Assembly: GCF_000959525.1 (NCBI RefSeq)
Contig: NZ_CP009832.1
Span: 2,728,001 to 2,792,000 of the forward strand
Reading direction: 5' to 3'
Length of the DNA stretch: 64,000 bases
Source of the DNA: Burkholderia multivorans ATCC BAA-247
Lineage (GTDB): Bacteria > Pseudomonadota > Gammaproteobacteria > Burkholderiales > Burkholderiaceae
Shown here: positions 34,762-37,937 of the stretch, in pieces
How positions within the stretch are numbered: position 1 is the stretch's first letter
How the letters are laid out: every line of letters begins with the position of its first letter
Position numbers and translations under genes: made by a program
The notes under the pieces: generated by a model
What the model saw: the letters and a program-made list of their open reading frames with translations, nothing else
Told to the model about the DNA's origin: nothing
Database searches by the model: none

Positions 34762-35421
34762 TCACGACGCCTTCGCGACCTTCGCCCCCTTCCCCGCGCT
34801 GCGCTCCGCCCATTCGACGATCGGCCCCCACTGCTCGAGATCCTTGTCGACGCGGCTTTTCGCGACGTCCCAGAGCGTCAGGCCGTGCGCGGCGATCTGT
34901 ACGTAGTTCTGCGTGTCGCGCAGGTAGCCGAGCACCGGCAGTCCGAGCCCCTCGACGAAACGGTGCAGCTGGTCGGACGAACGCGTGCGCGCGTCGACGC
35001 GCATCCCGACTATGCCGACCTCGACGCTGCCCTTGCGTACGGCCTTTTCGGTCGCGAGGCGTTCGAGAAACTGCTGCGTCGCCAGAATATCGAACATCGA
35101 CGGCTGCAACGGCACGATGACCTTGTCGGCCAGCTGCAGCGCGACGTTCAGCCGCGTGCCGTGCAGGCCGGCCGGCGTGTCGATCACCGCGTATTCGAGG
35201 CCGCGCGGCGGCTTCGACGGCGCGTCCGGATCGAGATTCCACGCCTCGATCGTCGGCAGCCCGGCCGGCCGCAGGTCGAGCCACGCATGCGCGGACTGCT
35301 GCCGGTCGAGATCGGCGAGCGCGACCCACGCGCCCTGCGCCGCGAAATAACCGGCAAGGTTGGTGGACAGCGTGCTCTTGCCGACGCCGCCCTTCGGATT
35401 CGCCACCACGATGACCGTCAT
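34762..35421 (-). CDS. ParA-family (MinD-like) ATPase, orphan
   Basis: This 219-residue ParA/MinD-type ATPase has the deviant Walker A PKGGVGKSTLSTNLA (K9 region), the DLDRQQSA motif and IDTPAGL. Such proteins partition DNA or position cell structures by forming ATP-dependent gradients. No parB-like partner or centromere-like repeat lies next to it, and it is too short to carry its own helix-turn-helix. It is therefore an orphan ParA rather than the chromosomal parAB system. It converges on panD and lies downstream of the DoxX gene on the same strand, 153 bp away. Confidence 0.85.
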   Translation of the reverse strand: MTVIVVANPKGGVGKSTLSTNLAGYFAAQGAWVALADLDRQQSAHAWLDLRPAGLPTIEAWNLDPDAPSKPPRGLEYAVIDTPAGLHGTRLNVALQLADKVIVPLQPSMFDILATQQFLERLATEKAVRKGSVEVGIVGMRVDARTRSSDQLHRFVEGLGLPVLGYLRDTQNYVQIAAHGLTLWDVAKSRVDKDLEQWGPIVEWAERSAGKGAKVAKAS

Positions 35422-35574
35422 GAATTCCCCCGAAAAAGCCGCGCGGCGCCGGCTGCATGGCCGGCGCCGCTCATTGCGGATACAGGGAGCGATGATATCG
35501 GTAAAACGGGTATCGCCGAAACGGGTTGCACCGATCCGCTGCCGTGCGCGGCCGGTACGCCTTCCCTATGTCGC

Positions 35575-35988
35575 TTACGCGCGTCGCGGTTCGGCGCCCG
35601 ATGCGTCGAGCGCGAATGCGCCGCCGCCGAGCAGCGCCTGCACGACGAGCGTCACCGCCCAGAACGCCGGGTATTCCCAGCCGCCGTGCGGCGCGCCGAA
35701 ACTCCAGCCGTTCGGCAGATGCGCCGAGACCGCGCCGAGCATGAACGGCAGCAGCACGAGCGCGGCGAGCCGCACGCGCACGCCGGCGAGCAGCGCGAGG
35801 CCGCCCACGAGCTCGACGAGCGTCGTCAGATAGGCGAGCCAGCCCGGCAGGCCGATCGACGCGAAAAACTGCGCGGTGCCGGGCAGCGTGAAGACGAATA
35901 CCTTTTGCGCGACGTGCGCGAGATACAGCACACCGAGTGCGACACGCAGCAGCGTCGCGGCGAAATCGTTCAGGCGATCGGAATTCAT
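35575..35988 (-). CDS. DoxX-family membrane protein
   Basis: This is a 137-residue integral membrane protein with four hydrophobic helices, fitting the DoxX/DUF417-like family (LRVALGVLYLAHVAQKVF; GTAQFFASIGLPGWLAYL; VELVGGLALLAGV). The family name comes from a thiosulfate:quinone oxidoreductase subunit, but most members have no defined role. The start is the ATG at 35988 behind CAGGAA; the longer in-frame start at 36084 adds an unrelated leader. Directly upstream of it is the simple-repeat cluster at 36112-36370. Confidence 0.85.
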   Translation of the reverse strand: MNSDRLNDFAATLLRVALGVLYLAHVAQKVFVFTLPGTAQFFASIGLPGWLAYLTTLVELVGGLALLAGVRVRLAALVLLPFMLGAVSAHLPNGWSFGAPHGGWEYPAFWAVTLVVQALLGGGAFALDASGAEPRRA

Positions 35989-36111
35989 GGCGGGTTCCTG
36001 TGAGAGTGAGTGATCGAATGGATCGCACTCTATTCGAAGCGATTTCTCGGATAAACACGCCGTTTCGCTTTCACTCGTTCTCAATGGGAATTAATCGAGG
36101 CAGGTGCCACG

Positions 36112-36166
36112 GGGCATGGGCCATGGGCCATGGGCCATGGGCCATGAGCCGTGAGTCACGAGTCAG
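36112..36166. repeat. Heptamer tandem repeat (GGGCCAT)
   Basis: Four perfect GGGCCAT units lie at 36118-36145, flanked by GGGCAT on the left and decaying units on the right (GAGCCGT, GAGTCAC, GAGTCAG). It is the first of three adjoining repeat families in the doxX-cobQ gap (35989-36431). The rest of that gap holds only a short AT-richer stretch next to doxX (36010-36095), a likely promoter area. Confidence 0.9.
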
Positions 36167-36180
36167 AGCCGCGAGCCGCC

Positions 36181-36260
36181 GCTCGCCGGGCCTCGCCGGG
36201 CCTCGCCGGGCCTCGCCGGGCCTCGCCGGGCCTCGCCTAGGCTCGCCGGGCGGGGCCGGG
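36181..36260. repeat. Decamer tandem repeat (CCTCGCCGGG)
   Basis: Four perfect CCTCGCCGGG units lie at 36191-36230, with one-mismatch copies on both sides (GCTCGCCGGG, CCTCGCCTAG, GCTCGCCGGG, CGGGGCCGGG). The array is eight units long in all and in register. It directly abuts the pentamer array. Confidence 0.92.
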
Positions 36261-36370
36261 CCAAGCCGAGCCGAGCCGAGCCGAGCCGAGCCGAGCCGAG
36301 CCAAGCCAAGCCAAGCCGAGCCGAGCCGAGCCGAGCCGGGCCGAGCCGGGCCGAGCCGGGCTGAGCTGAG
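36261..36370. repeat. Pentamer tandem repeat (CCGAG/CCAAG), 22 units
   Basis: The array consists of 22 in-register pentamers: mainly CCGAG, with CCAAG in four places, CCGGG alternating near the right end, and two final CTGAG units. The strand asymmetry is strong (few T on this strand). Such short-unit arrays are prone to slipped-strand length change and may serve as a variable-number marker. Confidence 0.95.
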
Positions 36371-36431
36371 TCAACCACGCCGAGCCGGGACACGCCGCTC
36401 CGAGCCCCACTCCCGCCCGCCGCCGCGCGAC

Positions 36432-37937
36432 TCAGCGAAACGCCGCGTACAGCGCGCCGAGGTCCAGATGCGCGGCGAACGTGTCCGCGAGCCGCTCCAG
36501 CGACGCCTCGCGCAGCGCCGGATAATCGATCCGTTCGGCGCGATCGAGCCCGGCCCACGCGAGCAGCGCCGTGCATGCGTCCGGCGCGTCGAACAGTCCG
36601 TGCACGTAGGTCGCGAGAATCTGCCCGTCCGCGGACAGCGCGCCGTCTGCACGCATGCCGCCCGCCGCCGCGCCGTCTTCCGCCAGCTCGAGGGCCGGCG
36701 ACGCGAGCGCGGGCCCGCGCGTGTCGCCCATATGGATTTCGTAGCCGTGTACCGCGGCGGCGCCCGGCAGCGCGAGGCGCCCGGTCACGTTCTTCAGCGT
36801 CTTGTCGGGCTGCAGCGTCGTCGCGAAATCGAGCAGCCCAAGCCCCGGCACGCTGCCGGGCGCGCCTTCGAGGCCGAGCGGATCGTCGAGCGTGCGGCCG
36901 AGCATCTGCATCCCGCCGCAGATGCCGATCACCTTGCCGCCGTAGCGCAGATGGCGCTGGATGACCGCTTCCCAGCCCGCCTCGCGCAGCCACGCGAGAT
37001 CGCGCTGCACGCTCTTCGAGCCGGGCAGGATCAGCAGGTCGGCGTTCGGCACGGGGCCGCTTTTCCAGTACGTGAATTCGACCTGCGGATGCGCGCGCAG
37101 CGGATCGAAGTCGGTGTGATTGCTGATGCGCGGCAGCGCCGGCACGACGACGCGCAGCACGCCCGCGTCGCTGCGCGCGGCCGCGCTGCGCGCCTGCGCG
37201 GGCAGCATGTCCTCAGCATCGAGCAGCAGCCCGTGCAGATACGGCAGCACGCCGAACACCGGCTTGCCCGTCTGCGCGCGCAGCCAGTCGAGGCCCGGCT
37301 CCAGCAGCGCGATATCGCCGCGGAAGCGGTTGATCACGAAGCCGCGCACGCGCGCGCGCTCGCTGTCCGACAGGCATGCGAGCGTGCCGACGAGATGCGC
37401 GAACACGCCGCCGCGGTCGATGTCGGCGACCAGCACGACCGGACAGTCGACGCGCTCGGCAAAGCCCATGTTCGCGATGTCGCCTTCGCGCAGGTTGATC
37501 TCGGCCGGGCTGCCGGCACCTTCGACGATCACCGCGTCGTAACGCGAGCGCAGCCGCGCGTACGATTCGAGCACCGCATCGAACGCGACCGGCTTGTAGT
37601 CGTGATACGCGCGCGCGTTGAGGTTCGCGCGCGCCTTGCCGTGGATGATCACCTGCGCGCCGCGATCGCTGGTCGGCTTCAGCAGCACCGGATTGAAATC
37701 CGTATGCGGCGCGACGCCGGCGGCCAGCGCCTGCAGCGCCTGCGCGCGGCCGATCTCGCCGCCGTCGGTCGTGACCGCGCTGTTGAGCGCCATGTTCTGC
37801 GGCTTGAACGGCGCGACGCGCACGCCGGCGCGGCGCGCAAGGCGGCACAGGCCCGCGACGAGCGTGCTCTTGCCCGCGTCGGACGTCGTGCCCTGGATCA
37901 TCAGCGTGCCGCGCGGCAGCAGGTCGGGTGCATTCAT
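36432..37937 (-). CDS. cobQ: Cobyric acid synthase
   Basis: This 501-residue glutamine amidotransferase amidates four carboxylates of adenosylcobyrinic acid a,c-diamide. The N-terminal dethiobiotin-synthetase-like ATPase domain has [15 protein letters not shown] and KPQNMALNS. The C-terminal class I amidotransferase-like domain has the nucleophile Cys in ICGGMQMLG and the His in HGYEIHMG and YVHGLFD. It is transcribed away from cobU, with a 77-bp gap between starts. It belongs to the cobalamin region 36.4-46.5 kb. Repeats lie just beyond its stop. Confidence 0.96.

Follow-up and report, generated by a model that had tools for sequence, protein, structure and literature searches.

In promoter-type contingency loci, a tandem repeat lies upstream of a gene, an arrangement also found at the locus of this study, between doxX and cobQ of Burkholderia multivorans ATCC BAA-247; however, the present tract is located outside the conserved block adjoining doxX and is absent from all 62 relatives compared. 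In the accessible text of PMC1574311, 24 of 33 intergenic indels found in B. mallei after passage were located in simple sequence repeats (SSRs). The tract resembles these SSRs in its short tandem units, partly intergenic in B. mallei, whereas length change on passage is a property of B. mallei; it differs in having two registers, ordered unit variants, and a position from which a small gene and a terminator have been lost, and is known from one genome. The term "compound microsatellite" is used in PMC8619395 and PMC4700210, and the adjoining arrays of related units that mark such microsatellites are also seen here; on the other hand, the arrays of this study keep a fixed 5-bp register with changing units, extend to at most ~270 bp, and occur at several sites of the genus. 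In the accessible text of the open-access literature, neither the doxX-cobQ locus nor Burkholderia arrays of the compound 5-bp kind were found, and neither doxX nor cobQ appears in the main text of PMC4603805.

The tract was located in the window, the whole stretch of DNA analyzed (64,000 nucleotides), where it sat between doxX and cobQ (both on the minus strand), after the stop of cobQ (36432) and upstream of the start of doxX (35988), as the earlier note had placed it. TRF applied to the window reported a period-7 array at 36106-36150 (score 69), a further row at 36115-36170 covering the decayed end of the heptamer block, a period-10 array at 36185-36366 (18.2 copies; score 161; 0% indels), and a period-5 array at 36255-36370 (23.2 copies; score 162). 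The arrays and their place were consequently real, but they formed two blocks rather than the three adjoining repeat families described previously (Table 1). The GGGCCAT heptamer was present as noted, and its extent was corrected, with decayed copies reaching 36166. When the second block was read in steps of 5 bp from 36185, 38 pentamer units followed one another without an indel: GCCGG/GCCTC alternating, some mixed units, GCCGA ×7, GCCAA ×3, GCCGA ×4, GCCGG/GCCGA alternating, GCTGA ×2, and GTCAA. The "decamer" unit is a GCCGG+GCCTC dimer of this 5-bp register, and decamer and pentamer constitute one array because all 38 units share one register without an indel. The proposal of successive expansions was supported, as was, for this pair, that of one array seeding the next; a role of the heptamer as seed of the other arrays was not supported because its register is different. 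The longest perfect runs were GGGCCAT ×4, CCTCGCCGGG ×4, and GCCGA ×7, in a whole tract of ~265 bp with ordered unit variants. With at least two adjoining arrays (the heptamer block and a 5-bp register of several unit types), the tract has the composition of a compound microsatellite. We consider it probable that it is a lineage-specific one that expanded by slippage where the gap is no longer constrained, and that it is most likely near-neutral.

Table 1. Features of the doxX-cobQ region and related loci (window positions unless a locus is named).
Feature	Position	Strand	Description	Basis
doxX	35575-35988	minus	Pfam PF07681	E 4.5e-20
Conserved doxX-adjoining block	35989-36098	minus		alignment to 14 relatives
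Site where relatives have, in collinear position, the small gene and intrinsic terminator	36099-36431	minus	neither present	alignment
Heptamer block	36111-36166	no strand	GGGGCAT, GGGCCAT ×4, then decayed GAGCCGT, GAGTCAC, GAGTCAG	TRF and unit parse
Compound pentamer block	36185-36374	no strand	one 5-bp register, 38 units, mostly GCCNN	TRF and unit parse
cobQ (cobyric acid synthase)	36432-37937	minus	Pfam PF07685 and PF01656	E 1.4e-56 (PF07685)
Small-gene start in named CobQ loci	L033-L036 and L038 from 4586; L037 from 4594	plus		pattern scan of CobQ loci
Long compound one-register arrays at unrelated sites, other Burkholderia	L156 1400-1645; L259 434-700; L262 337-607; L274 354-596

The scores of 161 and 162 compared with a best TRF score of 113 in 60 dinucleotide shuffles of the window, and 1000 shuffles of the doxX-cobQ gap reached 68 at best; head-to-tail short units were thus well above chance, as in an SSR. 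No other short-unit repeat of the window was as strong, and the next best TRF array there scored 131 with a unit of 48 bp. A further 400 kb of this genome were sampled as 20 stretches, 19 regularly spaced and one picked for a second GCCGA array. Among units of ≤10 bp, the best TRF score there was 92, and every array that scored above those of the doxX-cobQ gap had a unit of at least 42 bp; over the 464 kb in total, no short-unit array was stronger than that of the gap. Larger-unit arrays of this genome included 69 bp × 5.2 copies (L237 11253-11613) and 47 bp × 4.0 copies (L228 17711-17897). Long G+C-rich repeats can be mis-sized, but an assembly artefact is extremely improbable here: the assembly (6,322,746 bases) consists of 3 contigs (550,289, 2,344,193, and 3,428,264 bases) and is 100% complete, the tract is only ~265 bp long with ordered unit variants, and comparable arrays are found in other assemblies.

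The doxX-cobQ gap was compared in 64 other genomes of the genus (one per species), both anchors being present in 62; G038 and G042, without a doxX anchor, were left out. The check on related genomes suggested in the earlier note did not return the same length and sequence in all relatives: none of the 62 carried the arrays. In the gaps of these relatives, TRF rows with a score of ≥40 and a unit of ≤30 bp were found only in G054 (11 bp, 2.5 copies, score 40) and G047 (18 bp, 2.8 copies, score 60). The gap was 446 bp in the window and, among the relatives, 358-402 bp in 49, 107-208 bp in eight, 285 bp in two (G063 and G064), and 431-451 bp in three. The 285-bp gap was nearly identical between G063 and G064 (L188 and L189; a few bases differ), yet their flanking genes were 83-93% identical and a tree of eight neighboring genes separated the two genomes; this gap may be a recombined or unusually constrained segment. 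A search of a plasmid collection for other strains gave one distant cobQ match only.

Most relatives had a small gene in the gap, mostly together with an intrinsic terminator, and the window genome had neither. A minus-strand protein of 42-50 amino acids was encoded in the gap of 50 of the 62 relatives; the gene was preceded by a GGAGG-like ribosome site, and the protein showed a basic N terminus, a hydrophobic segment, and a Cys-Asp that was invariant in the 13 aligned members. Read by eye, it is signal-peptide-like and probably secreted. Judging from substitution ratios, the small gene is under purifying selection: the median dN/dS was 0.33 (1221 of 1225 pairs), and pooled pN/pS was 0.46 in frame versus 0.91 and 1.41 in the other frames. 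The terminator motif downstream of the small gene, defined as a strict GGGCATG...CATGCC stem followed by at least 4 T within the next 10 bases, was found in 45 of the 62 relatives, all of which had the small gene, and a terminator scan was positive in both relatives tested (L004 and L007). The small gene was not found in 12 relatives (G013, G063, G064, G014, G015, G017, G021, G024, G027, G035, G050, and G052), and the gap of G013 contained a diverged frame lacking the Cys.

CobQ was 91-92% identical in the named Burkholderia loci (B. cenocepacia, B. metallica, B. anthina, B. territorii, and one further species). When 32 of 80 named-record CobQ loci were scanned with a simple pattern, the small gene was found in all six Burkholderia loci (L033-L038), and the 26 others (L039-L064) gave no match to this pattern. 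A small-protein profile matched 37 of 299 genomes of the family: 35 from the same genus and two weak matches elsewhere (E 1.8e-4 and 5.7e-4, the second with an internal stop). Only weak sub-threshold matches were obtained in Pfam, and in NCBIfam, NF058595 appeared in 10 of 13 members below the cut-off (best E 0.0029; 13.6 bits for member 1 versus a cut-off of 37). In the gap of the window, there was no small-gene frame, no terminator motif, and no terminator-like site (G+C-rich stem and T run), and the search of the whole genome for the small gene returned nothing better than E 0.14 (none at 0.001). In the tree of eight neighboring genes (21 genomes; G021 and G035 as the outgroup), the window genome clustered with G028 and G029 with a support of 87. 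Because this sister pair keeps the small gene and the terminator, the loss of both and the arrays probably belong to the branch of the window, as far as a support of 87 allows.

Five blocks of the window were locally aligned to 14 relatives with 100 shuffles each (70 comparisons). The ~110-bp block adjoining doxX aligned in all 14 (scores 55-92; shuffle means ~17; 0/100 shuffles each), and homology faded past it; the array blocks were mostly without homology to the old gap sequence. For the heptamer block, only G063 (32; 0/100) and G013 (23; 3/100) stood out, and G063 had two heptamer-like copies at the collinear place. This block also shared GGGCATG with the old terminator stem at a collinear place, with a score within chance. 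In the block comprising the interval between the arrays and the decamer, G003 (34; 0/100) and G012 (31; 3/100) stood out, but not the sister pair (19-20; 88/100); in the pentamer block, G060 (29; 4/100) and G045 (29; 5/100) stood out, again not the sister pair. The right flank gave no relative at ≤5/100 shuffles among the 14. These scattered scores, which the sister pair did not share, did not show that the arrays arose from the lost gene, and seeding from old sequence is not claimed because 70 comparisons were made; the arrays may nevertheless have grown in place.

The doxX-adjoining block probably holds the promoter and ribosome site of doxX, although a sigma-70 promoter scan of it gave no match. 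The distance from the doxX ATG to the nearest array is 118 bp, which places the arrays beyond this block; they were found neither within a coding frame nor within promoter spacing as inferred from the block. Because of this position, a contingency role for doxX, by which array length was proposed to alter its expression, was not supported. It is very improbable that the tract is a contingency locus in which slippage alters array length and switches doxX or cobQ-doxX read-through: a same-strand gene preceded by tandem repeats, perfect runs of 4-7 units, and the location in SSRs of 24 of 33 intergenic indels of passaged B. mallei (accessible text of PMC1574311) are in line with it, but, in addition to the position of the tract, its retention in none of the 62 relatives and the interruption of the repeats by variant units argue against it.

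Nothing found argues for a function of the array. Long open frames run through it, and it scored neither as a structured RNA nor as an intrinsic terminator: minus-strand RNA folding equaled that of shuffles (z 0.01), and an Rfam scan of 35400-36800 gave no match at the gathering score. It is quite improbable that the tract took over as the cobQ/doxX transcription boundary or has a function as an RNA or DNA structure. In favor of such a role, its occupation of the terminator's place and the mostly non-coding location of related arrays could be cited; against it, besides the folding and Rfam results and the gap devoid of terminator-like sites, the related arrays showed, by eye, no consistent strand direction.

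Six consecutive GCCRR units were found in 11 of 65 genomes (including that of the window), and 24 array loci were examined: the window, a second site of the same genome, and 22 chosen by the GCCRR pattern or by cross-match. A 5-bp-periodic tract of ≥45 bp was present in 21 of these loci and one of ≥200 bp in eight, two of which were the same site in G063 and G064. Units changed within one register at several loci (e.g., L156), and compound arrays of this type reached ~270 bp at unrelated, mostly non-coding sites. By a crude test of G+C at codon positions, 16 of the 21 tracts were outside coding-like frames, one abutted such a frame, one was inside, and three had no frame for judging. Array-like blocks at other loci cross-matched, as a mobile or horizontally acquired repeat element inserted in the gap would also do, but this origin is scarcely credible: the cross-matches fell on simple repeats without shared non-repeat sequence at the inspected sites, unit order varied between sites, and the window showed no ends resembling those of an element.

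The second GCCGA array of the window genome (L238 7941-8020; contig C3 near 2937950) started directly after the stop of a TetR-type gene. At this site, G033 and G045 carried an isochorismatase-domain gene that was missing in the window genome, and also in the sister pair and G013; the sister pair had no array there. The idea that such arrays presuppose gene loss agrees with the window and this second site, but was contradicted at the array sites of G059, whose flanks abut in G048 and G062, and of G051, whose flanks abut in G004. Gene loss is not required because the flanks abut at these two sites, so that the arrays there amount to a gain of ~215-245 bp with nothing replaced. That the same 5-bp register recurs at many sites may signal something more specific than plain slippage. 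Taking the arrays as a fixed register with changing units, up to ~270 bp and mostly just outside genes, a recurring mutational process of Burkholderia might build compound 5-bp-register arrays, one of which would here have overwritten the gene for a small secreted protein and its terminator and would now be the cobQ/doxX boundary; we regard this as improbable.

For the lineage-specific, near-neutral microsatellite that we favor, short direct repeats would have expanded by slipped-strand mispairing, and point changes in single units would have been amplified in turn, giving the GCCGG/GCCTC dimers, GCCGA, and GCCAA. The tract would be tolerated because the interval from the cobQ stop to the conserved doxX-adjoining block no longer contains anything under selection. 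The sole plausible effect would be indirect, in that loss of the terminator may let cobQ transcription read on towards doxX.

This analysis places a compound microsatellite on a phylogeny in which the sister genomes still keep the small gene and terminator, and the comparison brings to light, between cobQ and doxX, a Burkholderia gene for a conserved small protein that reaches the cut-off of no Pfam or NCBIfam family. This gene and the recurrence of 5-bp-register arrays in the genus are more interesting than the array itself, which points to a recurrent array type in Burkholderia with a testable cause.
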